Shown: in pieces, positions 4,751-33,871 of the stretch
How the letters are laid out: each line of letters starts with the position of its first letter
Position numbering within the stretch: the first letter of the stretch is position 1
Source: Bacteroidales bacterium
GTDB taxonomy: Bacteria > Bacteroidota > Bacteroidia > Bacteroidales > UBA932
DNA length: 41,764 nt
Reading direction: 5' to 3'
Assembly (NCBI GenBank): GCA_017446775.1
Contig: JAFSQE010000003.1
Coordinates: 1 to 41,764, forward strand
The notes under the pieces: generated by a model
Told to the model about the DNA's origin: nothing
Seen by the model: the letters and a program-made list of their open reading frames with translations, nothing else
Databases searched by the model: none
Made by a program: the position numbers and the translations under genes

Positions 4751-5674
4751 ATGAAGGGAAGGATTTCTTTTAAGGCTGGTGCTGTTCAGCACATTTACCA
4801 AAGGACAAACCATGGTTTTCTGGTTTTCTATTCAGTGAGGGACTATCTTGTGTTCTTCACAATCATCATGACCGTTGCCAGACAACACAAAGTCAATATC
4901 TTGGGGTTATGCTTTATGGTAGATCACATACATCTTCTGGTGGAGGTTGATTCCAGAGAAACCCTCTCTTCGTTTGTACAACATTACACCACATGGTTCT
5001 CGCAGGAGTGGAATCGGCATCACGGCCAGTCCGGTTCTCTTTTTGCCAGACAGTTTGGGTTCGCCTCCAAAGACAATGACAAATCCATCCGCAGTGCTAT
5101 TGCATATCTGTTCAATAATCCTGTAGAAAAAAAGCTGTGTTCCCGGCCAGAGCATGCACGTTGGAATTTTCTGGCATATGGATCAGGTCGAAGTCCCTTT
5201 TCTGAACCAATCAAAAAAGCCAGCGCCAGAACCGTATTCAGAAAAGCACTTAACCTTGTAGATTCAGCGTATCGGCATGACCGGCCGCTTGGGTACACCC
5301 TTCTGGGCAGGATTACTGAAAAACTGGAAAGGCAAGAGCATCTTCAAATAACCGATTACATCATTACAAGATACAACGCCATCGATTATCAAAAGACAAT
5401 CAGTTATTTCGGTACATACGACAGTATGATAACTGCTGTAAATACTGCCAAAGGGAGTGAATACGATATAAGGGAAGTGTTTTCTTCCGGTTCTGACCAG
5501 ATATATGCAACATTAACATCGGCACTCCTGCGCAGAGGTATCATATCCAGTGTAGAAGAGTTGTTGAAACTGCCGCCGGAGCAGAGGCGGGATTGTCTTT
5601 ATTGGATGTCAATGGAAACAGGCGCCAGCTTTGCCAAGATAGCAAAGTATCTTCATATCGCCCTTTCATCTTGA
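4751..5674 (+). CDS. REP-associated tyrosine transposase (RAYT, Y1/HUH superfamily)
   Basis: The 307-residue protein belongs to the IS200-like Y1 transposase superfamily, single-strand nucleases that act on hairpins. The HUH motif is in VDHIHLLVE (H59 and H61). The conserved AYLFNNPVEKKL segment (Y119, NP at 123-124) corresponds to the RAYT block Y-I-x-x-NP. The first 135 residues form the nuclease. The rest is an alpha-helical extension whose end (RRDCLYWMSMETGASFAKIAKYL) resembles a helix-turn-helix, as in other long Bacteroidetes RAYTs. RAYTs are usually single-copy housekeeping-like genes that mobilise REP palindromes, and two REP-like palindromes flank this region. Base composition is clearly more A+T-rich than the neighbours. 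Confidence 0.85.
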   Translation: MKGRISFKAGAVQHIYQRTNHGFLVFYSVRDYLVFFTIIMTVARQHKVNILGLCFMVDHIHLLVEVDSRETLSSFVQHYTTWFSQEWNRHHGQSGSLFARQFGFASKDNDKSIRSAIAYLFNNPVEKKLCSRPEHARWNFLAYGSGRSPFSEPIKKASARTVFRKALNLVDSAYRHDRPLGYTLLGRITEKLERQEHLQITDYIITRYNAIDYQKTISYFGTYDSMITAVNTAKGSEYDIREVFSSGSDQIYATLTSALLRRGIISSVEELLKLPPEQRRDCLYWMSMETGASFAKIAKYLHIALSS

Positions 5675-10793: not shown

Positions 10794-11288
10794 ATGACAG
10801 ACTTTGCCGCGATAGATTTCGAGACTGCGAACGAGTGCCCCAGCAGCGTGTGCAGCGTGGGGGTGGTGGTCGTGCGCGGCGGGCTCATTACGGATACTTT
10901 TTACAGCCTGATCCACCCAGAGCCGGAGTATTACAAGTGGTTCTGCCAGCAGGTGCACGGGATTTGCCCGGAGGATACCGAAACCGCGCCGGTGTTCCCG
11001 TTCGTCTGGGAAAAGGTCGCTCCGCTTATAGAGTCTCTGCCGCTTGTTGCGCACAACGCCCGTTTCGACGAAGGATGCCTGAAGGCGGTGCACCGCGTCT
11101 ATCAGATGGACTATCCCGATTATCGGTTTTACGATACGCTGGCGGCATCACGGCGCCACTTTGGCAGATTGCTGCCCAACCATCAGCTGCATACGGTGGC
11201 GGCGGCCTGCGGCTTTGACCTTACCAATCATCACCACGCGCTTGCCGATGCCGAGGCCTGCGCCCATATCGCATTGCAGTTATTATGA
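10794..11288 (+). CDS. DnaQ-like DEDD-family 3'-5' exonuclease
   Basis: The 164-residue protein has the exonuclease motif I DFETAN (residues 7-12, acidic D7 and E9). A central AHNARFDEGCL corresponds to motif II (LVAHNARFD), and the C-terminal HHALADAEACAH to motif III (H..AL.DA...A). This is the compact single-domain form of the DNA polymerase III epsilon/RNase T superfamily, processing DNA or RNA 3' ends. The start was set at 10794 by the conserved MTDFAAIDFET and the promoter. The frame is open further upstream but that overlaps the carbonic anhydrase. It overlaps the next gene by four bases. Confidence 0.9.
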   Translation: MTDFAAIDFETANECPSSVCSVGVVVVRGGLITDTFYSLIHPEPEYYKWFCQQVHGICPEDTETAPVFPFVWEKVAPLIESLPLVAHNARFDEGCLKAVHRVYQMDYPDYRFYDTLAASRRHFGRLLPNHQLHTVAAACGFDLTNHHHALADAEACAHIALQLL

Positions 11289-11587
11289 AGAACGTTAAAA
11301 TCACCGCCATGCGGCGGACGGAGTATCCCGATTTGATGAAGATTTACGAGAATCCAATCGAGTATGCATGCGATGTATCGGTGGGGCGGGAGTGGATATC
11401 GGTGGACGGTGGCAAGCCGGAGGGGCTCTGTGTGTCTGCCTGGGAGTCGATGCGACCCTTTGTGGAGGCGCTCGCCCGCGGCGAGGGGAATTTCTACGAC
11501 GGATGGATGCGCAACCCCTTTAGCGCGATGGTCAGCTGCAACGACGGCTTCCGTCCGGTGAGCTTCTATCTCGAGGCTCTGGACTAG
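11285..11587 (+). CDS. TIGR04076-family small protein
   Basis: The 100-residue protein opens with KNVKITAMRR and carries GLCVSAWESMRPFVEALA and MVSCNDGFRPVSFYLEAL, matching the general layout of TIGR04076 proteins (PEG-C-x-W-A-W then C-x-DG-x-RPV). Three cysteines (in YACD, GLCV, VSCN) recur at family positions. Function is unknown; a metal or redox role has been guessed from the cysteines. It is translationally coupled to the exonuclease and faces the radical SAM gene, with 4 bases between the two stop codons. Confidence 0.7.
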   Translation: MKNVKITAMRRTEYPDLMKIYENPIEYACDVSVGREWISVDGGKPEGLCVSAWESMRPFVEALARGEGNFYDGWMRNPFSAMVSCNDGFRPVSFYLEALD

Positions 11588-11591
11588 CGGT

Positions 11592-12605
11592 TTATTTTCC
11601 CAGGATCGGGTCGGGGAGGGAGAAGGTGCCGTAGAGTTGTTCGCTGGCGGCGCGGCAACCGCCATTACATTTGGACAGGCGGTCGCAGCCGCTGCATTTC
11701 TCCGGAATCGCGGCGTAGCGGGCGGTAACTTCAGGGTCTGTAAGGATTTCTCCGATGGGGCGCTTGTGGATATTTCCCAGCACATGGGGCGAGTGGTTGC
11801 AGAAGCGCACGTCGCCGGTCCAGCTCACCGCCACGGGGCGGCGGCTGAAGTCTGTGCTGCACCACGACGACAGGATGTGTGGATATTCGGCCTGGTCAAG
11901 CAGGCAGGCGGGGGTGCACACGCCGCTCACGATGTGCATGTCGCCGGCCGCGGCAGCGAAGGCCTCCACATCGGCAAAAGCCCGCTTCAGTGTATCTAAA
12001 TCCATCGACAGTTCATCCAGGTTCCGGATGCCCATGCCGCCTATGTTGAAGCGGTTTACCATTACGTTATGGACGCCCGTTTCGCGGATCATCTTCAGGG
12101 TGGCGGTAACGCCGGGCGCGTTGACTTTGGTGATGACCAGCACGGCGTAGGCTCCCTGCGGAAGCGCTGAAACCACGCGGGAGAGCGCCGCCCGCGCCTT
12201 TTCCCACGAGCCGGGGAGCGAGGTGAGATGGTCGTGGATGCTGCTTTCTGCGCTCAGCAGCGGAATCTGTATGGCCCCAACGCCCAGGCTCACAAAGTTG
12301 GCGACGGCATCTTCGCCAAGCAGCGTCCCGTTGGTGAGTATATTGACGTGGCTGCCGCGCATGCGGGCGTACATGGCCATATCGTGGATGTTTTTAAGCA
12401 GCATCGGCTCGCCGCCGGAGAATGATATCGTGCCTACGGAGGCCTGGGAGAGCAGTTTGCGCAGGGTGCGGCGTGCGGTGGAGGGGTCGGGCGCGGCTAT
12501 CGGGCTGCTCCCGTCGCGCCAGTAATTATAACAGAACCTGCAACACTGGTTGCAGGCTCCTGTAAGTTCGTAAACTATATTGCCAATCTGAAAGCCGCCT
12601 TTCAT
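11592..12605 (-). CDS. Radical SAM/SPASM-domain protein, candidate peptide or lipoprotein maturase
   Basis: The 337-residue protein has the radical SAM cluster motif CxxxCxxC (C18, C22, C25 in ACNQCCRFC), the GGEPM motif at about residue 64, and a C-terminal SPASM-type region with C-S-G-C-D and CNGGCRAA near residues 305-320. SPASM enzymes usually carry auxiliary iron-sulfur clusters and modify peptides or proteins. The ATG at 12605 overlaps the TGA of the upstream small gene (TGATG); a TTG one codon earlier is the only alternative. Tight coupling to two paralogous small membrane proteins suggests these are its substrates, as in Bacteroidetes rSAM/lipoprotein systems (TIGR04133/TIGR04134). 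Family membership beyond radical SAM/SPASM is inference. Confidence 0.85.
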   Translation of the reverse strand: MKGGFQIGNIVYELTGACNQCCRFCYNYWRDGSSPIAAPDPSTARRTLRKLLSQASVGTISFSGGEPMLLKNIHDMAMYARMRGSHVNILTNGTLLGEDAVANFVSLGVGAIQIPLLSAESSIHDHLTSLPGSWEKARAALSRVVSALPQGAYAVLVITKVNAPGVTATLKMIRETGVHNVMVNRFNIGGMGIRNLDELSMDLDTLKRAFADVEAFAAAAGDMHIVSGVCTPACLLDQAEYPHILSSWCSTDFSRRPVAVSWTGDVRFCNHSPHVLGNIHKRPIGEILTDPEVTARYAAIPEKCSGCDRLSKCNGGCRAASEQLYGTFSLPDPILGK

Positions 12606-13135
12606 CAAAGAATCGAGATGGATCTGGAGCCGACAAAATCGTCGGTCTGCTGCTCATCTTCTGTTTTTACACCCGAAATCTCTACCAGAGCTTCTCCCCG
12701 GAATCCGGTCTCAACAATCTCGAGGTCAAAGTTTGCGACGGACAGATTCTTGTCCGCAATCTCGAAGACATTGCTCTGAATAACCTGCGACTCATCTTCT
12801 GCAGAGAGGACTTTTACGCGGTATATCTCGTATGCGGGGTCGTAGATGCGCACCAGAAGGGTGTCCCCGATGTGCAGCTGGCAGTCGCCGCCCTTCTTGG
12901 GCCGGACATTGATCTCGTTGGGTGGAGACGGGGGCTCGTAGCAGGTTACCTCCGGTGGCGGCGGTGCCTGTCCGCTTGCAGAGAGCAGGGCCCAGGCGGC
13001 TATCATCGCGCCTCCGAGCTTATATTTGGTACGGATTGCCTTAGCGTTCTTGCCGTGCGAGAAGAACACCCAAAGGGAAACGGCTGCAAATGCAGCACCA
13101 AGGGTTATATAGACCAGAAGGGCTTTTGTTTTCAT
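12605..13135 (-). CDS. Twin small membrane protein B, partner of radical SAM gene
   Basis: The 176-residue protein has two hydrophobic segments (about 6-25 and 41-53) separated by a basic loop (GKNAKAIRTKYK). A Pro-rich link with VTCYEPPSPPN follows, then a soluble, acidic, beta-rich domain of about 100 residues. Of its first 56 residues, 42 are identical to the neighbouring paralogue, while the C-terminal part is much more divergent. The paralogue's possible lipidation Cys56 is Gln here (SASGQ). No known family is recognised. It is 12 bases after the paralogue and overlaps the radical SAM start by one base. Possibly a modified or exported precursor or structural protein. Confidence 0.75.
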   Translation of the reverse strand: MKTKALLVYITLGAAFAAVSLWVFFSHGKNAKAIRTKYKLGGAMIAAWALLSASGQAPPPPEVTCYEPPSPPNEINVRPKKGGDCQLHIGDTLLVRIYDPAYEIYRVKVLSAEDESQVIQSNVFEIADKNLSVANFDLEIVETGFRGEALVEISGVKTEDEQQTDDFVGSRSISIL

Positions 13136-13147
13136 AGCATAAACTTA

Positions 13148-13678
13148 TCAGATGATAGTGATGGCATCGCCACCGATATAAGTCTCGGTCTCGACATCGT
13201 TTTCAGTGGCTACGCCAAAGACTTTGAGTATCGCAACCCCTTTGTAACCATTATCTGCAATCTGTAGCTCAAAAGTTGCTACAGCCTGGCTTTTGTCGGC
13301 AAAATCGAAGGATTCGCTCTGCAAAAGTTGCGGCTGGTCGTCAATGGTGTAAAGTCTGACCGTAAATTTGTCGTATGTCGGATCGGAAATCTGGATTAAG
13401 AGGATATCGCCGCTGTTCAACGCGGGATCTTCGGTATCCTTGGGCGTTATATACACCATATTGAGAGGCGACGCAGCATCGTAGCAGGTAACAAAAAGAC
13501 CTGGACCGTTACAGCTTGCGGCAGAAAGCATCGCCCACGCGGCAATCATTGCCCCGCCGAGGCGGTACTTGGTGCGGATGGCCCTGGCATTTTTCCCCCT
13601 GCAAAGTAAAACCCATAGCGAAACCGCTGCAAATGCAACACCAAGCGCGATATATACGATAAAAGCTTTTGTCTTCAT
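13148..13678 (-). CDS. Twin small membrane protein A (possible lipoprotein), partner of radical SAM gene
   Basis: It is a 176-residue paralogue of the next gene with the same architecture: hydrophobic segment 6-25, basic loop RGKNARAIRTKYR, hydrophobic segment 41-53, here ending LSAASC with Cys56 in a lipobox-like setting. VTCYDAASP and a beta-rich C-terminal domain follow. The start at 13678 makes both paralogues exactly 176 residues; an in-frame ATG two codons upstream (13684) is possible. Function is unknown. The strongly conserved N-terminus and variable C-terminus resemble a shared leader or anchor with diversified cargo. Confidence 0.75.
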   Translation of the reverse strand: MKTKAFIVYIALGVAFAAVSLWVLLCRGKNARAIRTKYRLGGAMIAAWAMLSAASCNGPGLFVTCYDAASPLNMVYITPKDTEDPALNSGDILLIQISDPTYDKFTVRLYTIDDQPQLLQSESFDFADKSQAVATFELQIADNGYKGVAILKVFGVATENDVETETYIGGDAITII

Positions 13679-13709
13679 ATCCAATAGGTTGTTATGCAGA
13701 TGGTAAATG

Positions 13710-21292: not shown

Positions 21293-22560
21293 ACCGAAAA
21301 GAATTTTTGACAAATATGGGTGCGCTGGCCGCGGGGGCAATGCTTTTCCCGTGGCTGACTGCCTGCACCCCGGAAAAGCAGAAGGATGCTGCCGGAGGCA
21401 AGGCCCGTCTTGGAATAATAGGCACCGGCAGCCGCGGCCGCTTCCATCTGGCAAACCTGCTGGAAGACGATCTGGTGCAGGTGGTGGCGATCTGCGACGA
21501 CTACAGGCCACATCTGGACGAGGCGGCGGCGATGTGCCCCGGTGCGCGTCTGTATAGCGACTACCACGCCCTTCTGGAGGACAGCGAGGTGGACGGAGTG
21601 GTTATCTGCACCCCGTTGAGCATGCATTCGCAGATGACCATCGATTCTTTTGCTGCAGGCAAGCACGTCTTTTGCGAGAAGGCGCTGGCCTGGAGTGTGC
21701 AGCAGCTCACCGACATGTACTCTGCATGGAAGGCTTCCGGCAAAGTCCTGATGGTTGGACAGCAGCGCCTCTACGATCCCAAGTACGTCAAGGCGATGGA
21801 ACTAGTGGCGGGCGGTGCGATAGGTCAGGTGGTGGGCATCCGCAACTACTGGTACCGCAACAACGACTGGCGGCGGCCGGTGGACGATCCCAGTCAGGAG
21901 CGCCGTATCAACTGGCGCCTCTACCAGCAGTATTCCCGCGGCCTTATGGCAGAGCTTGCCTGCCATCAGCTGCAGAACGGCTCGTGGGCCATGGGAGGCC
22001 TCCGACCCGATTACGTTTCGGGTACCGGCAGCATAATGTTCTACAAGGATGGCCGCGAAGTCTTTGACAATGTCGCCGCTATATACCAGTATCCCAACGG
22101 GGTCCACATGACCTTCGACAGTATAATCGCCAACAAGCATTTTGCCATGGGAGAGCAGATCCTGGGCAGTGAAGGGACAATTGACCTGGTACGCGGCGTC
22201 ATGTACAGCGAGCAGCCCCGCCGCCGCGCCGGCCTTAGGCAGATGCTGGAGCAGATAGAGCAGGGGATACTATCCAACGCTGCCTTTGCCGGATCTTCGT
22301 GGGTTACCGAGGCTCCCGGCACAGACAAAGGGATCCGCTTTGTGGATAACGTCTCCGTGGTGGACGGCGCAAGCAGCGTCGGCTTTTCCGGCGATGGTTC
22401 TGTGGAGCTGATGCACGCCTACGCATTGGCGGTAATAACCGGTGTGCAGCCCGCAGAGATTGTGGAAGAGGCTTGCTGGTCTACCCTGCTGGCACTGCTG
22501 GGCGACGAAGCCACCCGCACGGCAAGCCGCATAGATATCCCTAAAGACCTGTTTGAATAA
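21289..22560 (+). CDS. Exported Gfo/Idh/MocA-family oxidoreductase, second copy (lipoprotein-like)
   Basis: The 423-residue protein starts MNRKEFL followed by a hydrophobic stretch ending LTACTP (Cys26), so it looks lipidated; the twin Arg of the other copy is Arg-Lys here. The Rossmann start is RLGIIGTGSRGRFHL, the family's CEKAL appears near residue 130, and an alpha/beta substrate domain follows. The start at 21289 was chosen because it overlaps the ApbE stop as ATGA and precedes the signal sequence; the frame extends further upstream only inside apbE. Two exported oxidoreductases in one operon suggests sequential or alternative oxidation of sugar hydroxyls. Confidence 0.85.
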   Translation: MNRKEFLTNMGALAAGAMLFPWLTACTPEKQKDAAGGKARLGIIGTGSRGRFHLANLLEDDLVQVVAICDDYRPHLDEAAAMCPGARLYSDYHALLEDSEVDGVVICTPLSMHSQMTIDSFAAGKHVFCEKALAWSVQQLTDMYSAWKASGKVLMVGQQRLYDPKYVKAMELVAGGAIGQVVGIRNYWYRNNDWRRPVDDPSQERRINWRLYQQYSRGLMAELACHQLQNGSWAMGGLRPDYVSGTGSIMFYKDGREVFDNVAAIYQYPNGVHMTFDSIIANKHFAMGEQILGSEGTIDLVRGVMYSEQPRRRAGLRQMLEQIEQGILSNAAFAGSSWVTEAPGTDKGIRFVDNVSVVDGASSVGFSGDGSVELMHAYALAVITGVQPAEIVEEACWSTLLALLGDEATRTASRIDIPKDLFE

Positions 22561-22576
22561 GCAAAGGAGTATGGAT

Positions 22577-24871
22577 ATGAAACTCTCCGGTCACTTAACT
22601 TTGGCAGTCGTCACGCTGTGTGTGATGCTTGCAGCCTTTGCCTGCACACCAGAAGAAGACGGGCAGCAGAAGATTACGGCCCTGGAGGTCGATCCTGGCA
22701 CCGTATCGTTGACAGAGGGGGAGAAACTCTCCCTGAAGGTTAATGTAACCCCGTCAGACGCCCATTATCTCTACGTGACATGGTCTTCCAGCAACGAGTC
22801 GGTGGCCAAAATCAACAAGGCGGGCACGCTCAAGGCCATTGCCCCGGGCAGCGCTACCATCACTGCCGCGCTGGACGGTGTTACGGGAACCTGCAGCGTG
22901 ACTGTGGCAGAGAATGTCACACCCGTGAGCGGAATCCACCTGGGCAGCCCCTCCATAACCATGGGTATAGGCTCCACTGAAACCCTTATCGCCACAATAG
23001 AGCCGGCCGAGGCGGTGAACAGGGAGGTTATATGGACATCTTCAGACGAATCGGTTGCCACCGTCAGCGGCGGTGTCGTTACCGCCATCGGCGACGGAGA
23101 GTGCGACATAACTGCCACCAGCGCCGACGGCGGCTTTAGAGATGTATGCCACGTGATAGTTCGCGCAATCCCCGTGGAGTCACTCTTGTTCTCAAATGGC
23201 AGCGACCTCACCATAGTCGCCGACGGCGGCAGCACATACACCCTGATAGTGAAATATACTCCGGAGAATACTTCCGACCGCGATCTGGTATGGACATCCT
23301 CCGACGAGAGCCTTGCCACCATAAGCCAGAGTGCCGCCGGGCAGGCCATAGTGAACTTTGCCCAGGATAAGGCCGGGGTGGTGAAAGTTACCGCCGCTGC
23401 AGGTAATCCTGAGCGATGCGCGGTGCAGCAGTTCTTTGTCAAGGGCGCCGAGCCGCTGGTTATCCGGCCGGACGGTATTCTGTATGCCGGCCGCAAGGCC
23501 ACCTGGAGCTTCAATACCGCCGCCTACGGCGAAGCTACCGATATCAAGTGGATAGCGGGCGGAAAGCAGTACGAAGGGGCAAGCGTGGCCTTTGCCGCCA
23601 CCGATGGGGGCGAGAGTACCGTGAGCGTATCGGCCAATTACGGCGGAGAGCAGATAACCTTTGCAGAGGAGTTCGAGGCACAGGAGTGGCTGGTTAACAT
23701 AGCCCTGAACGGAACCAATCCCCGCAACACCTATCCCGTGTTCAACAAACAGGCGACCCGGGCCTACTTCGTGACCCGCCAGCCCCGCCGCCTGTACGAG
23801 CTTAACCTCGAGGATGGCACCCTGGGCTGGATGTTCGCCATGGAGGCGGAGAAGCAGGACAATGGAGGCGACATCTGCGTCAACCCCGTAAGCGGAGATA
23901 TCTACTGTTCCAACCAGACCAGGATATTCTGCCTGGCTGCCGACGGAAGTGTCAGGTGGGAAATTCCGGTGCCGGAAGGCAGAACTCCCTCTGCGTTCTC
24001 TGGCTGCGGTCCCGGCCTGAGCAACGACTGCACGGTGCTGTTCGCTTCGCTTACAGATAAACGGTTCATCGCCGTGAAAGCTGACTCCGGAGAGATTCTC
24101 GATTCCTTTGCCATCAATCACGACCATTTCCAGTTTGCAGTTTATGGCGACAACGAGATAGTCTACCACTCCAATTCTGCAGATGGCGTCGGGGCTATAG
24201 GTTTCGTAAAGTTCAGCGGCGGACGCTTTGGACAAATCACCAGGATTGACTCCCCCAGCAAGGACGGCACCGACATCACCACCCCCGCAATCAACCGTGG
24301 CCAGACCCGGTGCTGGTTCCCATGCGCCGCCGGAGTGATGGTGGAGGTGGACCTTACCGCCAAAAAAGTCACCGCATCGCCCAAGATCGGCGACGGTTAC
24401 AACATGCAACCCTGCCTCACCCCGGACGGTAACTGGATGTACTTCGCCTCGCAGGTAAACAGTACGGTGTGCAGGATAGATCCCGGCACCATTTCCGGCT
24501 CCCCCGTGCCGTTTGTGGATTACTCCGGCAGCTCTTCCAGTATGCTCAACTTCACCTCTGTGGCCTGCGATACAGAGGGCAACGCCTATTTCTTCATAAG
24601 GGAAGACGGTGCCGGCAACAACACGTTCTTCCGCATCAGTGCCGCCGGCGAACGGTTCGTACCGGAGGTTATAGCCACCATCGGCAAACAGAACGACTTC
24701 CCCCAGGGCTTCTTTAACTTTGGCGGAGGCTGTCTGATTGGCGGTGGCGGAAGCAGCACCGTCAACCGCCTGCTGGTGCGTTGCGTGGATGCGGAGCGGG
24801 CAAAGGGCTGGTCGGGCCCCGGCGGCGACCTCTGTGCAACCAAAAATGCCAACATAGCCTATGGTGATTAA
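22577..24871 (+). CDS. Lipoprotein with Big2-type Ig domains and a beta-propeller
   Basis: The protein has about 764 residues. The start at 22577 is favoured by AAAGGAG 7 bases upstream; 22571 and 22553 are in-frame alternatives. The lipid Cys is in AAFACTP. Two Big2-type bacterial Ig-like domains (ITALEVDPGTVSLTEGE and VSGIHLGSPSITMGIG, each with a V-x-W-x-S-S-(N/D)ES-V-A core) and a third, more divergent one follow to residue about 290. From about 380 on is a PQQ-like/seven-bladed-type beta-propeller (blades such as NGGDICVNPVSGDIYC). Likely a surface glycan-binding protein of the PUL. Its end overlaps the next gene by 11 bases. Confidence 0.78.
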   Translation: MKLSGHLTLAVVTLCVMLAAFACTPEEDGQQKITALEVDPGTVSLTEGEKLSLKVNVTPSDAHYLYVTWSSSNESVAKINKAGTLKAIAPGSATITAALDGVTGTCSVTVAENVTPVSGIHLGSPSITMGIGSTETLIATIEPAEAVNREVIWTSSDESVATVSGGVVTAIGDGECDITATSADGGFRDVCHVIVRAIPVESLLFSNGSDLTIVADGGSTYTLIVKYTPENTSDRDLVWTSSDESLATISQSAAGQAIVNFAQDKAGVVKVTAAAGNPERCAVQQFFVKGAEPLVIRPDGILYAGRKATWSFNTAAYGEATDIKWIAGGKQYEGASVAFAATDGGESTVSVSANYGGEQITFAEEFEAQEWLVNIALNGTNPRNTYPVFNKQATRAYFVTRQPRRLYELNLEDGTLGWMFAMEAEKQDNGGDICVNPVSGDIYCSNQTRIFCLAADGSVRWEIPVPEGRTPSAFSGCGPGLSNDCTVLFASLTDKRFIAVKADSGEILDSFAINHDHFQFAVYGDNEIVYHSNSADGVGAIGFVKFSGGRFGQITRIDSPSKDGTDITTPAINRGQTRCWFPCAAGVMVEVDLTAKKVTASPKIGDGYNMQPCLTPDGNWMYFASQVNSTVCRIDPGTISGSPVPFVDYSGSSSSMLNFTSVACDTEGNAYFFIREDGAGNNTFFRISAAGERFVPEVIATIGKQNDFPQGFFNFGGGCLIGGGGSSTVNRLLVRCVDAERAKGWSGPGGDLCATKNANIAYGD

Positions 24872-26099
24872 AAGGATATATAACAGGTTTTTAATGGCAG
24901 TTGCCGCCTCGCTGCTAATGTCCACCGTGACCGCAAAGGCCCAGTATATCTGGGCTGCTGCCAGCAACGAGACCCTGTACAATGAAATGCTCTCTTACCT
25001 GAAGACATTCCAGACCGACCTTGTGGGAGAACAGGCCTATTATATGGCCCAAAACCTGGTGGTGGAGCTGGAGGCGGCCCACAAAAGCGACCCATACATA
25101 TGGATGACGCAGATGCACAACTTCTGCAACAAGCTGGAAGCGATCTATCCCCCTTCGCTAAGTCATCCCAAAGTCTCCAGGGCCTATGAAGACCGATACG
25201 ACAAGCTGCGCCGGGGCATCACCCGTCTGCGCGACTTCCCGATGCACGAGGTGACGATCTCTTACGAGACACCGCCCCCCGCAAGCGGCCAGGCAGAGGC
25301 CTTTACCGCCGCCAACAGACAGTGGCTGCATAACAAGCGGGAGGAGTTCTTTAGGTCCCTGCGGGGCCCCCGCCCGAGCGCAGATGAGCTCCAGATTGCA
25401 AAGTTATACAGCTCGGGAGTCGTGCTCCGTACCAAAGACGCCTGCATAGGCATAGATATCTGCTACGGGGAGGGTCTTTACGACGCGCTTTACAAAGAAG
25501 AACTGGCCGATATGCTGGATGTGCTTTATGTGACGCATGCCCACGGCGACCACTATGACCTGGAGTTATTCAGGATGATGATGGCCAGGGGCAAGCCGGT
25601 TGTGGGACCGTTCACTATGGAAGAGCGGTACTTTTCCAAGGATGTCGGCGACAAGCATTTCTGGCGCGACAGCCAGCTGGAACCGCAACTGATAGGCGGA
25701 GTGGCGACCACCCAGGCCTATATGTCGGGCCAGGGCGACGAACCCTGCCTGCTCTATCTTATCCAGATAGGCGACTGGCGCATAGTGCACGTAGGTGATA
25801 ATTCCCACCACGAAAACGAGGAGCTGATTTATCCTCTCTTCCCCAAGGCGGACGTGGTTTTTGCCCCGGTGTTCCAAGGCGTGGTGTATCTGTTCAACAG
25901 CACGCTGGCGGCTCCCAATCCGGGCAACATAGAGCAGGTATACGTGAATATCCACGAAAACGAGTGGCATCACGAAATCCACGGCCGTATCTCCTATGAG
26001 TACCTTTACAATCACAACGGCGCGTTGAATAATACCGGCCGGAAGTATCCTTCGGTTGTGATAATGGATAACGGTGAGCACATAACTCTGTATAAATAA
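24861..26099 (+). CDS. Exported metallo-beta-lactamase-fold hydrolase
   Basis: The 412-residue protein has a Sec signal (cleavage near AKA-Q, residue 27) and an alpha-helical domain of about 160 residues. An MBL domain follows with the metal motif THAHGDHYD (H226, H228, D230, H231), a later VGDNSHH and a C-terminal histidine-rich NEWHHEIHG. The enzyme class is hydrolytic or redox on unknown substrates. The helical N-terminal extension is unusual for the family. Its presence between glycan-binding lipoproteins suggests action on a non-glycosidic bond (ester, lactone or phosphodiester), which is inference only. Confidence 0.8.
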   Translation: MVIKRIYNRFLMAVAASLLMSTVTAKAQYIWAAASNETLYNEMLSYLKTFQTDLVGEQAYYMAQNLVVELEAAHKSDPYIWMTQMHNFCNKLEAIYPPSLSHPKVSRAYEDRYDKLRRGITRLRDFPMHEVTISYETPPPASGQAEAFTAANRQWLHNKREEFFRSLRGPRPSADELQIAKLYSSGVVLRTKDACIGIDICYGEGLYDALYKEELADMLDVLYVTHAHGDHYDLELFRMMMARGKPVVGPFTMEERYFSKDVGDKHFWRDSQLEPQLIGGVATTQAYMSGQGDEPCLLYLIQIGDWRIVHVGDNSHHENEELIYPLFPKADVVFAPVFQGVVYLFNSTLAAPNPGNIEQVYVNIHENEWHHEIHGRISYEYLYNHNGALNNTGRKYPSVVIMDNGEHITLYK

Positions 26100-26106
26100 G
26101 CCGGAT

Positions 26107-26985
26107 ATGAAATCATACCACATATTTGCAACAATCCTTGCGGCGGCTCTTGCAACTGCCTGCAACGGAATCGGAGAGAACGACGGCAAAAAGACCGGCG
26201 GCCAGATGTGGGTTCATGAAAAACCTCAGGTGGCTATGGTCGAGATCAGCAGCGGAGACAACGTGATAGAGACATACGAATATACCTACGATGAACAGGG
26301 GAGGATGCTGACCCTGGTCAGGACCGACCATCTGTCCAATGTCGTTATGCTGGATCTTTCGTACACATATCCCGGCGAAAACCAGATGAAGGTGCAGGGG
26401 ACCTTTTTCCCCATAAAGACCAATCGGTATATCGACGTATCCTGCAATCCCGACTCCGGCACAATCTCCTACACCGGCAGCTGGAGCGGCGCATGGAGTT
26501 ATACCACTACCGTAGGCTCTTCCGGAGTCATTTCGTCTACTGTCTGCCAGAGTAACTTCGCATCATCAGAGGGATATTACACCTCCAACATGGATTACAG
26601 CGAACTTTATACAGTCGCAGAGGGTACCGTTACGGAATCGGTCATAGGCACCGGGATAAACGCAAAGAGCAGCAAATCCACCCGGACGGCCAATTCCTCG
26701 ACCCTGAAAACCATCTATTCGAAAGGGGATCAGGCCGACCGCCAGAACTTTGCGGCCTATCTCATGCCAGACTATTTCCCCGTATGGATTGCCTCCGGAT
26801 TACCCGGCAACAAGACCCTCATCACAGGTATCAGCAGTTTTACCGGTACCATCCAGGCGCCCGAAACCACTGCGTTGGAGTATTCTTTCAATGCTGCAGG
26901 AAATATCGACTCCGTCGTCCGCACCGACCGTAACGGCAGCGAGACGGTGTTGACACGGACATATAAGTTCTTCTACAAGGAGTAA
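26107..26985 (+). CDS. Lipoprotein of unknown function (DUF4595-like)
   Basis: The 292-residue lipoprotein (LATACNG, Cys19) is beta-rich and Ser/Thr-rich. YEYTYDEQGRML near residue 60 and LEYSFNAAGNIDSV near the end resemble the Y-x-Y-D-x-x-G-R strands of DUF4595/RHS-like proteins common in Bacteroidales. It sits 7 bases after the MBL gene and 1 base before the next gene. Probably an outer-membrane PUL accessory protein. Confidence 0.65.
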   Translation: MKSYHIFATILAAALATACNGIGENDGKKTGGQMWVHEKPQVAMVEISSGDNVIETYEYTYDEQGRMLTLVRTDHLSNVVMLDLSYTYPGENQMKVQGTFFPIKTNRYIDVSCNPDSGTISYTGSWSGAWSYTTTVGSSGVISSTVCQSNFASSEGYYTSNMDYSELYTVAEGTVTESVIGTGINAKSSKSTRTANSSTLKTIYSKGDQADRQNFAAYLMPDYFPVWIASGLPGNKTLITGISSFTGTIQAPETTALEYSFNAAGNIDSVVRTDRNGSETVLTRTYKFFYKE

Positions 26986-26986
26986 A

Positions 26987-28876
26987 ATGAAAATACTTAA
27001 AACGACATTCTTCGCCGTCCTGGCCCTCCCGCTGCTCCTCTGCTGCGAGAAGGACAAGCCGCACAGCGTCTTCTGGGGCGGGGTAGAAGAGATGGAAATG
27101 CCATCGGAACAGAAGCCGGATGCCCCGGGCATTCCCGAATCTGCGCCCGATGCGGTGGAGTACTCTTCACTGCACGATCAGCTTCACAACGCCGGCCAGT
27201 TCTTTATCCCGGAGAGCGACCTGCAGCCCGAGGTGTTCTGGTATATGACCTATACCGACTATCCCCACCGGGACGAGCCCAACAGCAACGGCGACGTGAA
27301 CAGCGGTCTGCAGAACTACCTGCTGATGCAGTCGGTGGCAGGGCTGGTGAATCGCGCCTGCGCACAGGGGAAGACCAGCGTCGGGATTTGGACAGAACAG
27401 AGCGGGACGGGCTATGATATGGAGCGGGCCGATTTTGGCCGTCAGATTCCAAACCACCAGAGCGCGGTGGACCTGGCCACCAAGACATACGGAAAGGTGG
27501 ACGGGTATGACGTTACGGTGCGCACACTCTTCTCCGGCTATGTGCTCACCGACCTTATGAACAACCCGGAAAGTGCCATCGCCGCCACGGTTGCCAGCCA
27601 TGTGTATAACGCCATCATAGTGGATGTGCGCGACGAGGAGTTCTTTATCCGCAGCGGCTATACCAAAAAGTACGATTGTACCAGGATGTCCACCAGGGAT
27701 GCCTGGGATGCATTCAAGGACAAGTGCGATAACTCTGCCCTGGTGCTGATGCCGGTGAATACGGGCGAGAATCGCGACTTCGTGATCCAGAACGGGCTGT
27801 TCCTTGTGAATCTCAACAAGAAATACAATACCACCGCGGGCGGGCAGAACCTCACCCTGTTAGAGGAGATACTGGAGTGGCTCAAGCCCCACAGCCAGGT
27901 AATCGGATGGGAGCAGGGGGTAGGCGAGCACGTCTTTGTAGAACCAATATCCAGGCACGGCCACTTGATGCTGGCTGCCGACTGGAGCTACAACATGGGG
28001 GTCACCTCCCGCCACTACAGCGACCGGCAGGGCGCCGCGCTTGCCAAGTCAATCAACCCCCGCACGATAGACTACAACGCCAAGGCCAACTACCTGGGCT
28101 TTTTCCTGACCGACGGAGACAACTACCAGTGGCTCATCACCGACAACTTTGTAACCAACTATTATTCGCAGCTCTCTGCAAAAGAGGTGAAAATGGCCTT
28201 CGAACTGGGGGGACAGTCGCTCACGCAGCTGGCTCCGACACGCCTGCAGTATATCCTCAGTCGCCAGCCGTCGGCAGAATGCACCATTATGGAGACCTTT
28301 GGCGGCGGATACTATTATGCGGACCTGTTCTCTACCGCAGGCAAGGCGGCCCAGGACAGGGATGCCGGCATAAAGTTGCTGGCAGAGCGCACCGCTGCCC
28401 ACATGCGTCAGCACGGCATCAAGGTGCTGCATGTGATGGCAGGCGATTTTACATCGGCCAAGGCCCGGCAGGTGCTGCAGGCCTTTGTGGATGCCAACGA
28501 TCAGCTGGAGGGCATCACCGCCGTGTGCCGCGACCCCTACGATGCCGCCCACGGCAAGGTTTTCTGGTTTACCAACAGGCAGGGGTACGACATCCCCTGC
28601 ATCACCGCCAGCTATAAGATGTGGTCCGGCTTCAACACACCGGAGAGTATGGCCAAAACAATCGTAAAGGAGAATCAGACAAGCCTGTCGTTCAACACCA
28701 TTGCGGTGCACGCCTGGAGCACGTGGAACGGACTTAAGGCCTCCGATGCCGTGGCCCAGTGTACGCAGAACCTCCCGGAGAATTTCAAGTGCATATCCAT
28801 GCAGGAACTCATCTGGCGGCTCCGTATGCAGGAGCGGCCGGAGCAGACTCTGCAATACCTTTCAACCATCAAATAA
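26987..28876 (+). CDS. GxGYxYP-family putative glycoside hydrolase, lipoprotein
   Basis: The 629-residue lipoprotein (PLLLCCEK) matches the GxGYxYP family of putative glycoside hydrolases. An N-terminal Rossmann-like part contains the region VRTLFSGYVLTDL. The C-terminal part has LTDGDNYQWL near residue 376 and the name-giving motif at 439-445, here GGGYYYA, so the final Pro is Ala. The family is typical of human-gut Bacteroidetes PULs; activity has not been established to my knowledge. It lies 1 base after the preceding gene. Confidence 0.8.
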   Translation: MKILKTTFFAVLALPLLLCCEKDKPHSVFWGGVEEMEMPSEQKPDAPGIPESAPDAVEYSSLHDQLHNAGQFFIPESDLQPEVFWYMTYTDYPHRDEPNSNGDVNSGLQNYLLMQSVAGLVNRACAQGKTSVGIWTEQSGTGYDMERADFGRQIPNHQSAVDLATKTYGKVDGYDVTVRTLFSGYVLTDLMNNPESAIAATVASHVYNAIIVDVRDEEFFIRSGYTKKYDCTRMSTRDAWDAFKDKCDNSALVLMPVNTGENRDFVIQNGLFLVNLNKKYNTTAGGQNLTLLEEILEWLKPHSQVIGWEQGVGEHVFVEPISRHGHLMLAADWSYNMGVTSRHYSDRQGAALAKSINPRTIDYNAKANYLGFFLTDGDNYQWLITDNFVTNYYSQLSAKEVKMAFELGGQSLTQLAPTRLQYILSRQPSAECTIMETFGGGYYYADLFSTAGKAAQDRDAGIKLLAERTAAHMRQHGIKVLHVMAGDFTSAKARQVLQAFVDANDQLEGITAVCRDPYDAAHGKVFWFTNRQGYDIPCITASYKMWSGFNTPESMAKTIVKENQTSLSFNTIAVHAWSTWNGLKASDAVAQCTQNLPENFKCISMQELIWRLRMQERPEQTLQYLSTIK

Positions 28877-28885
28877 GCGCCGCCT

Positions 28886-30721
28886 ATGAAAAATCATCTT
28901 TCTGTATTGTTGACCGCGGCGCTGGTGGTTATTGCGGCAGCCTGTGCGCAGGAGTCTTCCCGGGGATACTGGGACGACAGCAGCGTCGGCACCGCCACCG
29001 TCTCTGGCGTGGTCACCGATACCTTCGGGCAGTTTCTGGAGGATGTCGAGGTGTGCTTTATCGGGACAAACATGAAGCGGGAGGTGCGTCTGGAGACCTT
29101 CTCCGACTGGGACGGATCTTTCCGTAAGGAGAACGTCCCCTCCAACGCCCGCTACGTTACTTTTTCACTGCCCGGTTATGCCACTGTGGCCTATACCATA
29201 GACCCCAGGCGCTTTGCAAAAGGGGAGGAGATCGTGCTCAACCCCGTGCTGGAGTTCTCCAACGCGGTTATCCGCGGCCGGGTGCTGAGCGCTGTAGACG
29301 GCACTCCACTTTCCGGCGTGAGGGTAGACTGCGGGGTGCAGGCCTCCACCACCGATGCCGACGGCAACTTTGAGATAACTTCACTGACGCTCAAGGACTA
29401 CACCCTGACCTACACTATTGCCGACGGCTCCATCTACCGTCGTGAGATAGCAATGGACGACTTTGTCGACAGTGCCGTCATAATGCCGACCGTCCGCCTG
29501 GGAGGTGCCGATATCCTTCCCGGCATGAAGTGGCAGCAACTGGCCGACGCCCCGCTGTGGCTGGCCAACAACTACCGCGGCTCTACCGGCTTTAGCGGAA
29601 TCAACCACTGGTCGGTGGGCTATATGAGCTCCTTTCTGTGGTACGGCGACTACCGCTACGAAGCGGAAGGGTGCGCACTGGTCAACATTTTCGAAGAATA
29701 CGACAATCCCGACCCGGACCAGTTCATCTGCTATACCTACGGTCGCAAATTTATCGACGAGGGGAACAGGATTTTCAGCGTGAATACCCGTACCCACTAC
29801 GCCACCACGGCAGAACCTGCACACTTCGGCGTCAAGGTGCTCAACCTCACCGACGGTGCCACCACTATGGAGGATGCCGGACGGTACACCTACGCCGGCA
29901 GCGAATATTCCTCCTTCTCGTTCGACCTTGGCAAATTTGTGGGCAAAGAGGTGATTGTCGCCTTTGGCATCTACTGGACCGGGTACATGTACCATCAGGT
30001 GTCCCGCCGGTTCTGCTTTGCGCCGGCGGCGGTCAAGGGCGATGATGCCCTCCCGGGCACCCCCATTGCCGGAGCCGAGTGGCGCGGCTTTACCCGCGAA
30101 AACCTCACCAGTATGATGCCCAACCCCGGCACGGTGTTCTCCGGAAGCAACTTTACGCTTAACAACACCGACGGCGACCACGGCGCCCGCCGCGTACACA
30201 ACCCCGGCGGCGACCAGGGTTTCAGCCTGTGGACTGGTACCAACCACATGATGATGAGCTGGGCGCTGCAGTATATCAGCAAGGAGGTCGAGCCGGTAAA
30301 CGAGCAGGGCTACACCCTTAAAACCCGCTCGGGCGTCGACAGCGACTATTATACACCCGAGTCGTATATCTACAGCCGCTTCCACATCACCGGTGCCAAC
30401 GACCGCGTGCACCTGTACCTTCGCACCTTCTCCAGTGCCAATCCTACGGTGTTCAGGGTCACTGCGGTGCCGCTGGAAACCTGCCGGGCAGAGGCGCTGG
30501 CCCCCGTCTCCAACACCGCCGACACTGCGGTTCCCGCCTCTAACGGATGCTGGAGCTTTGTGCACGAACGGGGCAACGGCAACCCTGCCGAATATGCCGA
30601 ATTCGTATATGATTTGTCTGCCTATACCGGCGGGGATGTTGTCATCGCCGTGGGTATCCACAAGGGGAGCAGCAAGGCCGCAGAGCAGAAGCTTTGTTTC
30701 TGTAAAATCGAAATGGATTAA
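28886..30721 (+). CDS. Lipoprotein with two carboxypeptidase-regulatory-like domains and beta-sandwich
   Basis: The 611-residue lipoprotein (VIAAACAQ, Cys20). Residues about 35-115 (ATVSGVVTDTFGQFLEDVEV) and 130-200 (AVIRGRVLSAVDGTPLSGVRV) are carboxypeptidase-regulatory-like prealbumin folds. The rest is beta-rich with two similar halves: VSRRFCFAP near 375 and AEQKLCFCK at the end, each after an IAVGIH/IVAFGIYW strand, suggesting an internal duplication of a binding domain. Likely a surface glycan-binding or assembly protein preceding SusC. No catalytic motif seen. Confidence 0.72.
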   Translation: MKNHLSVLLTAALVVIAAACAQESSRGYWDDSSVGTATVSGVVTDTFGQFLEDVEVCFIGTNMKREVRLETFSDWDGSFRKENVPSNARYVTFSLPGYATVAYTIDPRRFAKGEEIVLNPVLEFSNAVIRGRVLSAVDGTPLSGVRVDCGVQASTTDADGNFEITSLTLKDYTLTYTIADGSIYRREIAMDDFVDSAVIMPTVRLGGADILPGMKWQQLADAPLWLANNYRGSTGFSGINHWSVGYMSSFLWYGDYRYEAEGCALVNIFEEYDNPDPDQFICYTYGRKFIDEGNRIFSVNTRTHYATTAEPAHFGVKVLNLTDGATTMEDAGRYTYAGSEYSSFSFDLGKFVGKEVIVAFGIYWTGYMYHQVSRRFCFAPAAVKGDDALPGTPIAGAEWRGFTRENLTSMMPNPGTVFSGSNFTLNNTDGDHGARRVHNPGGDQGFSLWTGTNHMMMSWALQYISKEVEPVNEQGYTLKTRSGVDSDYYTPESYIYSRFHITGANDRVHLYLRTFSSANPTVFRVTAVPLETCRAEALAPVSNTADTAVPASNGCWSFVHERGNGNPAEYAEFVYDLSAYTGGDVVIAVGIHKGSSKAAEQKLCFCKIEMD

Positions 30722-30736
30722 AGGGAGGATGAGAGA

Positions 30737-33700
30737 ATGAGACAGTTTTACAGAATGATATGCATCGCGTTTTGGCTGCTGGCATCAATCGCAGCTTACG
30801 CGCAGGCGCAGATTACCGTAAGCGGAGTCGTGACCGACACCCAGGGCGAACCTGTGGCAGGGGCCGGAGTGGTTATCAAGGGGACCCGCACCGGAACCAC
30901 TACCGACCTGGACGGCCGCTATACCATAAAGGCTGCTGCAAACGCCTCGCTGGAATTCTCATGCGTGGGACTTGCCACCCGGACGGTGGCAATAGGCGGC
31001 CAGACTAAACTCAATGTAGTACTGGAAGCCGACAGCAACTTTCTCGAGACCTCTGTGGTGGTGGGCTACGGGGCCCAGAAGAAGGGCTCCATCACCGGGG
31101 CTGTGGTGGCCGTGGGTGGCGAGGAGATGATACGCACCAAGACAGAGAATCCCCAGAATATGTTAACCGGCCGCGTCTCCGGCGTCCGCGTATGGCAGAA
31201 GACTGCCGAGCCGGGTCAGTATTCGGCATCGATGGATATCCGCGGTATGGGCGCTCCGCTGGTTGTCATCGACGGTGTGCCGCGCGACATGAGCGACTTC
31301 CAGCGCCTGGCACCGTCTGATATAGAGAACGTATCGGTGCTGAAGGATGCGGCTGCGGCCATCTACGGCTTGCGCGGCGGCAACGGTGTGATCCTGGTTA
31401 CAACCAAGGCCGGCAAGGCGGGCGAGACCAAGGTCAGCTACAACGGCAACTATACCATCCAGACCCCGGCCAGCCTGCCGCGCCAGATGGATGCGCTTAC
31501 ATCGATGCTGCTGGTGAACGAGGCGGCCCGTGGCGGCATAGAGGGCGGAGCGGGAGAGTTTACAGAAGATATCCTGGAACTCTACCGCAACGGCACCCGC
31601 ACGGGAACCGACTGGAACAGCCTGATAATCCAGGATATCGCTCCGCAGAGCAGCCACGACCTCTCTATCAGCGGCGGTACCGACAAGATGCAGTTCTACT
31701 TTGGTATGGGCTATTTTTACCAGGAGGGATTCTGGAAGAGCGGCGACACCAACTACAACAAGTATAACCTGCGCAGCAACATCACCGCAGAGATAGCCCG
31801 CGGCCTCAAGTTTGGCGCCAACATATCGGGTTATATAGAAGATTTGCACAATCCGCTGGACGACCCGGAACTGATTATCCGCTACTGGTGGAAGCAGAGC
31901 ACCATCTGGGACGCCTATGCCGACCCGGAGCAGACAATGCTCAACTATAAGGACCTGGAGCTTGATTGGAACAGCGTAGCCCGCATCTATTCCGACATCT
32001 CCGGCCACCGCACGACCCAGCGCAGGAACATCAACGCCAACCTCTCGCTAAGCTACGATTTCGGAACCCTGACCGATGTTCTCAAGGGCCTTACGGCAAA
32101 GGCTATGTACAGCTACGACTACCGCGTGTCAGAGAACGAGACATATCGCAAGGAGTATTACCAGTACGCGTACAACGAACTCACCGGGGAGTATGAGCAG
32201 AAGCTCTACGCGGCCTCCTCGCCCAGCCAGCTGACCCGTCAGGATACACACAACAGGGCGTGGGTGGCACAGGCGCTGCTTGCTTTCGACCGCACCTTTG
32301 ACAAACACCATGTAGGGGCGACCCTCGGCTGGGAAATCCAGAAGAAGTTTGGCAACGGTTTCAGAGCCTTCGGCGACCTGGCATTCTCGTCGCCATATTT
32401 CACGGCGCTGACGGTGGAGGGGCATCAGGTTAGCCAGGGCGACCTGTACGAATATGCCTACAATTCTGCCATCGGCCGTCTGAACTATAACTACGACGAA
32501 CGCTATCTGCTTGAAGGCCAGTTCCGCTACGATGGCAGCTCCCGCTTCTACGAAGGGCACCGCTGGGGCTTTTTCCCATCGGTTTCGGCCGGATGGCGCA
32601 TCAGCCGCGAACCGTGGTTCAAGGATGGCGCGCTGGGCTTTATCAACCAGCTCAAACTGCGTACAAGCTACGGTATCCTGGGCACCGACGGCAGCGACTA
32701 TGAGTGGGCTACCGGTTATACATATCCGGCCTCGACCCTTTCAAATAACGGTTATTACAATACCAATGCCCCGGTATATTATCTGGGCAGCTGGGTGATG
32801 CGTGCCGACCCCAAGGCTATGCCCAACGAGGAGATTACCTGGTACACGAACCGCACCTTTGACGCCGGCATCGACTTTGAGGCCTGGAATGGCCTGCTGG
32901 GCATCACCTTTGACTGGTTCTACCGCCACCGCAGCGGCCTGATGGCCCGCAACTCCTCCGATTTCCCCACCATCGTGGGTGCCACCGCTCCGTTGGAGAA
33001 CATCAACGACGACTGTCACTTTGGCTTTGAGACGGAACTCAGCCATGCCCGCACGGTGGGCGATTTCCACTACAGGGTCAAGTCCATGATGTCTATCACC
33101 CGCAACAAGTATCTCTCCTACGCCCAGAGCACCAAATATGCCAATTCCTACGACAACTGGCGCAACAACTCCATGAACAACCGCTACCAGGGGATCAAGT
33201 TCGGCTACGAGGTCGTGGGGCGTTATGAAGATTGGGAGGATATCTGGAGCTACGACCTTAACAAGGGCAACGGAATCAAGCCGGGCGACTTCAAGTACCT
33301 CGACTGGAACGGCGACGGTCAGTTCAACAGCCAGGACGCCCACCCGTTTACATATTCCGGCAGTCCCTGGCTCAACTATTCGCTCTCCATCGAGGGTGAT
33401 TGGAAGCGGCTGGACTTCAGCATCCTGATGCAGGGTGCGGCGCTGGGCAGCGTCAAGTTTGGCGAGCCGCAGCTCAGTATATGGGGACAGCACGGTGGCG
33501 GTATGCTGGAGCAGTTTGCCGACCGCTGGCATCCTGCTCAGGAGACCAACGACGTCTATGACCAGACCCTTACCTGGATTGCCGGCACTTACGCCTACGG
33601 CGGTGCCTCTGCCGACGAGAACAGCGACTTCAACGTGCAGCCCATCGACTACCTGCGCGTCAAGGCGGTTGAGGTGGGGTATACGCTCCCTATGCCGTCG

Positions 33701-33859
33701 TCCTTGAAGGGGCTTGCCTTCAGGCTCTACGCGGCGGCCTACAACCCGCTTACCTTCACAAAGGTGAAGTATATCGACCCGGAGCACCCGGCCGACAACT
33801 ACGGGCGTCTCTATCCTCTGAACAAATCCTATACGTTTGGCCTGACGATGTCCTTTTAA
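30737..33859 (+). CDS. SusC/RagA-family TonB-dependent outer-membrane transporter
   Basis: The 1040-residue protein has a signal peptide (cleavage near AYA-QA) and a carboxypeptidase-regulatory-like N-terminal extension (ITVSGVVTDTQGEPVAGAGV). TSVVVGYGAQKKGSITGAV follows, then the plug (MDIRGMGAPLVVIDGVP) and a beta-barrel ending in SYTFGLTMSF with a terminal Phe. It imports oligosaccharides across the outer membrane with its SusD partner. A clear purine-rich ribosome site (AGGGAGGA, 30721-30728) precedes it. It stands near the 3' end of the operon, after the enzymes, the reverse of the usual susC-susD-enzymes order. Confidence 0.95.
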   Translation: MRQFYRMICIAFWLLASIAAYAQAQITVSGVVTDTQGEPVAGAGVVIKGTRTGTTTDLDGRYTIKAAANASLEFSCVGLATRTVAIGGQTKLNVVLEADSNFLETSVVVGYGAQKKGSITGAVVAVGGEEMIRTKTENPQNMLTGRVSGVRVWQKTAEPGQYSASMDIRGMGAPLVVIDGVPRDMSDFQRLAPSDIENVSVLKDAAAAIYGLRGGNGVILVTTKAGKAGETKVSYNGNYTIQTPASLPRQMDALTSMLLVNEAARGGIEGGAGEFTEDILELYRNGTRTGTDWNSLIIQDIAPQSSHDLSISGGTDKMQFYFGMGYFYQEGFWKSGDTNYNKYNLRSNITAEIARGLKFGANISGYIEDLHNPLDDPELIIRYWWKQSTIWDAYADPEQTMLNYKDLELDWNSVARIYSDISGHRTTQRRNINANLSLSYDFGTLTDVLKGLTAKAMYSYDYRVSENETYRKEYYQYAYNELTGEYEQKLYAASSPSQLTRQDTHNRAWVAQALLAFDRTFDKHHVGATLGWEIQKKFGNGFRAFGDLAFSSPYFTALTVEGHQVSQGDLYEYAYNSAIGRLNYNYDERYLLEGQFRYDGSSRFYEGHRWGFFPSVSAGWRISREPWFKDGALGFINQLKLRTSYGILGTDGSDYEWATGYTYPASTLSNNGYYNTNAPVYYLGSWVMRADPKAMPNEEITWYTNRTFDAGIDFEAWNGLLGITFDWFYRHRSGLMARNSSDFPTIVGATAPLENINDDCHFGFETELSHARTVGDFHYRVKSMMSITRNKYLSYAQSTKYANSYDNWRNNSMNNRYQGIKFGYEVVGRYEDWEDIWSYDLNKGNGIKPGDFKYLDWNGDGQFNSQDAHPFTYSGSPWLNYSLSIEGDWKRLDFSILMQGAALGSVKFGEPQLSIWGQHGGGMLEQFADRWHPAQETNDVYDQTLTWIAGTYAYGGASADENSDFNVQPIDYLRVKAVEVGYTLPMPSSLKGLAFRLYAAAYNPLTFTKVKYIDPEHPADNYGRLYPLNKSYTFGLTMSF

Positions 33860-33871
33860 AAGATTCAGAAG

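Follow-up and report, generated by a model that had tools for sequence, protein, structure and literature searches.

Introduction

Most known substrates of radical SAM/SPASM maturases are short peptides. SkfB, CteB, PqqE, SuiB, anSME, and ChlB act on peptides or proteins, the substrates of the first four bear leaders, and GeoRSP has a PqqD-like partner. The SPASM pattern consists of CX9-15GX4C, followed by CX2CX5CX3C and a final Cys. The MNIO enzyme, in turn, is unrelated to the radical SAM/SPASM enzyme described here. According to PMC12452194, the precursors of MNIO-modified bufferins and oxazolins contain Cys and carry Sec signal peptides, and the recognition sequence may include the signal peptide. 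These precursors resemble the proteins reported below.

We analyzed a stretch of 41,764 nucleotides from a Bacteroidales bacterium (contig JAFSQE010000003.1), hereafter called the window. It contains a radical SAM/SPASM gene next to two paralogous genes, whose products we refer to as twin A and twin B and, together with their relatives, as partners. The combination of a radical enzyme with exported proteins that carry a hairpin leader suggests an undescribed system that chemically alters a C[YH] pair (Cys followed by Tyr or His) before export. Enzyme and partner form a real, recurrent two-part system that is unnamed in the libraries and literature searched; no description of the pair was found among the openly licensed PMC papers that the searches listed.

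Organization of the locus

The genes are transcribed from the minus strand in the order twin A, twin B, enzyme (13678-13148, 13135-12605, and 12605-11592). The relevant features are listed below with their evidence.

11592..12605, minus strand: radical SAM/SPASM enzyme of 337 aa, starting with the ATG at 12605 (Pfam, orthologues, AlphaFold)
12605..13135, minus strand: twin B, partner without lipobox Cys (Gln56), 176 aa (orthologue L055:4944-5477)
13148..13678, minus strand: twin A, partner with lipobox-like Cys56, 176 aa (orthologue L055:5477-6001)
13514..13678, minus strand: twin A leader, residues 1-55, helical hairpin (AlphaFold helices 2-25 and 31-57; invariant residues)
12971..13135, minus strand: twin B leader, residues 1-55 (twin comparison and partner alignment)
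13481..13486, minus strand: Cys65-Tyr66 of twin A, proposed modification site (invariant in alignment A3; model linker 58-73)
12938..12943, minus strand: Cys65-Tyr66 of twin B, proposed modification site (invariant in A3)
12531..12554, minus strand: CX3CX2C radical SAM cluster motif, C18, C22, C25 (invariant in the 26-enzyme alignment A5)
11655..11861, minus strand: SPASM cysteines C249, C269, C304, C307, C313, C317 (invariant in A5)

The first-pass annotation had described two paralogous genes of 176 codons, 12 bases apart, the second of which overlaps the enzyme start by one base, and all of these measured points hold: each twin comprises 176 codons from its ATG, the intergenic gap spans 13136-13147, and the TGA stop codon of twin B (12607-12605) overlaps the enzyme ATG at 12605. 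The open reading frame listed for the enzyme begins at an alternative TTG at 12608, one codon upstream of the ATG. Since the flanking frames (13807 onwards and 11285-11587) both lie on the plus strand, the three minus-strand genes represent a unit of their own.

Twins A and B are identical at 42 of the first 56 positions and at 45 of the 120 that follow, which confirms the reported divergence of the C-terminal part. We also confirmed the VTCY-x-x-x-SP block (VTCYDAASP in one twin, VTCYEPPSP in the other) and residue 56, which is Cys in twin A and Gln in twin B. The C-terminal parts are homologous as well, with an alignment score of 248 versus at most -9 in 200 shuffles. Only 18 of the 42 identical leader residues are encoded by the same codon, and we thus read the twins as an old duplication kept by selection. 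Their equal length, which had been considered notable, means little because partners range from 75 to 235 aa.

Both twins have orthologues at locus L055, where the two copies are likewise in tandem, with their order swapped relative to the enzyme (L055:4944-6001 versus 12605-13678 in the window). Twin A agrees with L055_2 at 51 of 56 positions in the leader and 53 of 118 in the cargo; for twin B and L055_1 the values are 46 of 56 and 84 of 120. The swapped order between closely related genomes suggests recombination within the tandem array.

Elsewhere in the window, positions 22553-35938 look like a glycan-uptake locus: a TonB-dependent receptor with a Plug domain is paired with a SusD-like protein, and Big_2, GxGYxYP, and carboxypeptidase-regulatory-domain proteins are encoded ahead of this pair. 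An IS200-like (Y1) transposase is encoded at 4751-5674.

The radical SAM/SPASM enzyme

The Pfam search assigned the enzyme to the radical SAM superfamily (Radical_SAM PF04055, 64.8 bits, cut-off 29.5) and also recovered SPASM (PF13186, 28.7 bits, cut-off 21.5). In A5, the alignment of 26 enzymes that also served as a broader enzyme profile, the first two parts of the SPASM pattern are invariant, and no conserved final Cys is seen after C317. C234 is also invariant, and C230 is present in at least 90% of the sequences. The HMM comparison with enzyme subfamilies, suggested by the first-pass annotation, revealed no match above the cut-off among the best 25 of the 79 NCBIfam families found at E ≤ 1. 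The top score, 103 bits over nearly the full length, was obtained with GeoRSP (TIGR04303) and is far below the cut-off of 400. Seven distant relatives of the enzyme gave similar lists, and TIGR04133 appeared in six of them at 49-60 bits.

The AlphaFold model of the enzyme (pLDDT 89) has a barrel that begins at the N-terminus. Neither A5 nor the model contains an N-terminal recognition (RRE) domain, which counts against a role in partner maturation. By contrast, the first 13 PDB matches in Foldseek, all to SkfB, CteB, PqqE, SuiB, anSME, or ChlB, speak for such a role; from rank 14 on, small-molecule enzymes (DesII, BlsE, viperins) appear too and weaken this argument. SkfB, CteB, PqqE, and SuiB represent the nearest solved folds and share the radical SAM and SPASM domains, but are only 14-18% identical in the fold alignment and differ from the enzyme in its missing recognition domain. 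Unlike those of RiPP maturases, the likely substrates are exported proteins rather than short peptides.

Conserved leader, C[YH] pair, and variable cargo of the partners

To describe the partners, we aligned 49 of them, leaving out the TonB and small types (A3). Only M1, F16, K37, G41, C65, and Y66 are invariant. In the AlphaFold model of twin A, a helical hairpin (2-25, 31-57) is followed by a lower-confidence linker (58-73) with Cys65-Tyr66 and by a beta sandwich from residue 74. A membrane leader with at least one C[YH] behind it was found in 77 of 77 tallied partners, which argues for maturation by the enzyme; the tally includes near-identical locus pairs, some pairs that consist of the lipobox Cys and a following His, and four proteins (three of L130, one of L136) that were picked via a Cys-Tyr filter, though their genes are directly adjacent, and it does not count five further proteins that all have CY, namely the partners at L067 and L080 and the second partners at L059, L060, and L065. 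The pair occurs once in 48 partners, twice in 27, and three times in two, and in the close set the motif mostly reads [TM]CY[DE][PV]. Tyr follows 101 of the 250 Cys residues of the 77 partners versus 87 of 2500 in 496 control proteins from the same loci. The pair alone is not rare, since 22 of 208 size-matched controls have C[YH] after residue 50, as do seven of 32 in the lipobox-like subset, and this counts against our interpretation.

The cargo is an Ig-like sandwich, a TonB C-terminal domain, or almost nothing. Eight partner proteins of L130, L133, L135, and L136 contain TonB_C, and the leaders of the TonB type match A3 with 94.9% probability over 46 columns (hhalign), in favor of a common maturation. 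The same holds for the five tandem partners of 75-81 aa encoded before the radical SAM gene at L134:5403-6562: they keep little beyond the leader and TCH or SCH, which is present in all five, and one is devoid of the lipobox Cys. These proteins are possible minimal substrates. As a single natural control, a neighbor at L135 that was read as TonB-like and lacks the leader has no CY in the 140 residues examined. Besides the CY close to the leader, the partners L128:5877-6437 and L129:7085-7633 have CYY or CYF at their C-terminal ends. The first-pass description of a conserved membrane leader and variable cargo beside a SPASM enzyme is therefore borne out by the wider partner family.

The median identity to the window was 0.69 for the enzyme, 0.62 for the leader, and 0.33 for the rest (n = 38 partners). 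Across the loci, leader identity followed enzyme identity with a Spearman coefficient of 0.81, versus 0.63 for the cargo (50 loci and 1225 pairs, fewer for the cargo), both values being inflated by the relatedness of the loci. The partners thus show the RiPP-type pattern, in which the leader is better conserved than the remaining protein and tied to the enzyme. Both sets of values fit leader recognition, and the correlations support the proposed maturation.

According to our reading of the sequences, in which not every site was verified as a lipobox, 67 of the 77 partners have Cys at the lipobox position; it is missing in twin B, its orthologue, and eight others. Sixteen of the 77 had been flagged, but in six of these the Cys is followed by His or placed early. 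In several of the Cys-less partners, Gln is preceded by a small residue (AVA-Q, LSA-Q, and GNA-Q are examples), and such sites suit signal peptidase I in Bacteroidota. Judged from these sites, the Cys56/Gln56 difference probably reflects two export routes (lipoprotein versus signal peptidase I) instead of a functional twin pair, and the same modification may be carried both by a lipoprotein (A) and by a periplasmic protein that is released (B).

Occurrence of enzyme and partners

One scan of genome contigs yielded 41 loci, namely 39 with close enzyme orthologues (59-90% identity) and the far L094 and L095. By title, the close orthologues belong to Bacteroidales or Bacteroidia genomes, mostly metagenome-assembled and many of them from ruminants. 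A profile search on both strands of the whole stretch around each locus detected a partner gene in 39 of 39 close loci, which argues for maturation of the partners, whereas the absence of a partner from the stretch examined at L094 and L095 argues against it. A regular expression for upstream partners matched in 37 of the 41 loci and missed those of L067 and L080; in the latter, the partner sits behind the enzyme. Only four close loci (L055, L059, L060, and L065) have a second partner, the other 35 having a single one within the stretch examined. The second partners of L059, L060, and L065 also possess leader, Cys, and CY; those of L059 (7062-7577) and L060 (7027-7542) lie behind the enzyme on the opposite strand, and that of L065 (3158-3691) lies upstream, on the strand opposite to the enzyme and divergent from the first partner. 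Our comparison of the loci uncovered no conserved third gene of 110 codons or more near the enzyme. This result is in favor of maturation by the enzyme itself and sets the system apart from the MNIO systems, where a partner protein helps.

The enzyme was found in a minority of Bacteroidales. In the relatives sample, all six strong matches fell within the 26 genomes of the window's genus (own genome included), and ten genomes of other genera in the same family gave no match of comparable strength, which is weak evidence of absence because many genomes are incomplete. The partner profile A1, built from 37 proteins and applied at E ≤ 0.001, matched in 11 of the 393 genomes sampled from the order, the window's own among them, and in the phylum sample of 395 it matched one genome other than the own. 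Ten of the 11 other A1-matched genomes carry the enzyme adjacent to one to four tandem partners; in the remaining one, G105, the partner is located at a contig end. The co-occurrence suggested as a check on the twin homologues was thus seen for every A1 match of both samples except G105, and widespread partners without the enzyme were not encountered in either.

At E ≤ 1e-40, the enzyme profile A2 matched in 21 of these 393 genomes, among them every one of the eleven in which A1 had matched. Eighteen of the 21 have one to five adjacent partners, in support of the proposed maturation: ten that A1 had also matched, and eight of the ten that it had not (L128-L131 and L133-L136). In L132 and L137, the contig end cuts the relevant side of the enzyme. 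In G105, the match (L138:1175-1708) comprises 177 codons from the inner part of the gene and lacks the radical SAM core; no partner was found on its 5.7 kb contig, which counts against the coupling. The fragment corresponds to the C-terminal half only, has some conserved Cys replaced, lies behind an unrelated gene, and is apparently an enzyme remnant. In the phylum sample, A5 matched in three of 395 genomes: the own genome, G585 with a partner, and G461 (228.8 bits), for which no partner was seen. The last case also counts against maturation of adjacent partners; it is either a possible non-member of the family or a possible genuine exception.

Close loci have one or two partners and distant genomes one to five, so that a pair of membrane proteins is not supported as an essential feature. 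Hence the earlier interpretation stands as to the leader/cargo layout and the separation from TIGR04133, but not as to the twin pairing as its core.

Discussion

Our best reading, which we consider likely, is that the enzyme recognizes the leader and modifies C[YH], and that export and leader removal follow. The cytosolic enzyme would bind the membrane-hairpin leader of the neighboring protein or proteins, most likely via the loop GK[NS]...K.K.GG, and introduce a radical modification at Cys-Tyr (or Cys-His) in the flexible stretch behind it. The modified partner would then pass through Sec, and the leader would be removed by signal peptidase II from twin A, as a lipoprotein, and probably by signal peptidase I from twin B. 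The predicted end product is an Ig-like protein, periplasmic or tethered to the membrane, whose N-terminal segment is modified. As the pair is kept while the cargo varies freely, C[YH] is the likely target. As to the product, a thioether or carbon crosslink, located inside the pair or adjoining it, is our first guess.

The chemistry could also be a ranthipeptide-like thioether that links Cys with the Asp/Glu at the second position after it (C-Y-[DE]), with Tyr needed only for recognition. In the 40 close partners, D or E is indeed the next residue after 61 of 63 C[YH] motifs (62 of them CY), and the sactipeptide/ranthipeptide-type maturase 5why ranks second in the fold list. As precedent, PapB forms thioethers between Cys and Asp/Glu and tolerates Cys-Xn-Asp spacings of n = 0-6, as stated in PMC9413430. 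However, D/E occupies this place in 21 of 31 motifs of other distant partners and in only four of 14 counted motifs of the TonB-type and small partners (the group's His count of four leaves out one L134 protein owing to a position cut), while Cys and Tyr/His stay. The frequent loss of Asp/Glu in the TonB and small types leans to Cys-aromatic chemistry, and we regard the Cys-Asp/Glu thioether as doubtful. It is rather unlikely, in our estimate, that the partners merely assist the enzyme in the membrane (as anchor or in electron or metal supply) and that the true substrate lies elsewhere. A leader that is more conserved than the rest and tracks the enzyme would suit this role, and gene adjacency also fits an enzyme needed for another process involving the partners; the presence of as many as five partners in tandem, their cargo exchanged but C[YH] retained, does not, nor does the lack of any other conserved gene of at least 110 codons nearby.

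Membership in the known TIGR04133/TIGR04134 rSAM/lipoprotein pair, which the first-pass annotation had already questioned, is highly improbable. The layout is the same, with a lipobox, a short spacer, a Tyr-containing motif, a C-terminal domain, and an adjacent radical SAM gene in the same order and even the same genome, and weak profile similarity is present round the lipobox (hhalign of TIGR04134 with A3, 55% over 40 columns; with A1, 9%; control of A1 with distant partners, 99.8%). Yet the enzyme scores 43.7 bits against a TIGR04133 cut-off of 425, and the twins match no NCBIfam family at E ≤ 1, TIGR04134 (cut-off 39.8 bits) included; as enzyme and twins both fail the models, membership was rejected. 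TIGR04134 proteins above the cut-off are encoded by 14 of 119 genomes sampled from the order. The ten that we aligned have a shorter hydrophobic leader and a lipobox followed by YGxP rather than CY, although one has CY and one CH further on. Such matches coexist with the new enzyme in G000, G068, G090, and G091. The only one in the window's genome (L001, G000:C20:22061-22510) adjoins a radical SAM gene of its own (L127:6979-8049), whose product is 18% identical to our enzyme. The new system, though not a member, may work like the TIGR04133/TIGR04134 pair.

Leader-guided modification of the C[YH] pair before export would extend the known range of radical SAM/SPASM maturases: the proteins that appear to be its substrates here belong to the cell envelope, some of them possess a TonB C-terminal domain, and the leader seems to be both recognition element and export signal. 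Tentatively, we envisage a crosslink between Cys and the adjacent aromatic residue (Tyr/His) on diverse exported proteins, including TonB-type transducers, as a portable, leader-directed modification of the Bacteroidota envelope with a redox, metal-binding, or mechanical role, unlike known radical SAM products. If maturation takes place as proposed, the tiny L134 partners would offer a minimal substrate for solving the chemistry, and part of the envelope proteome of these bacteria would bear an unseen covalent modification.
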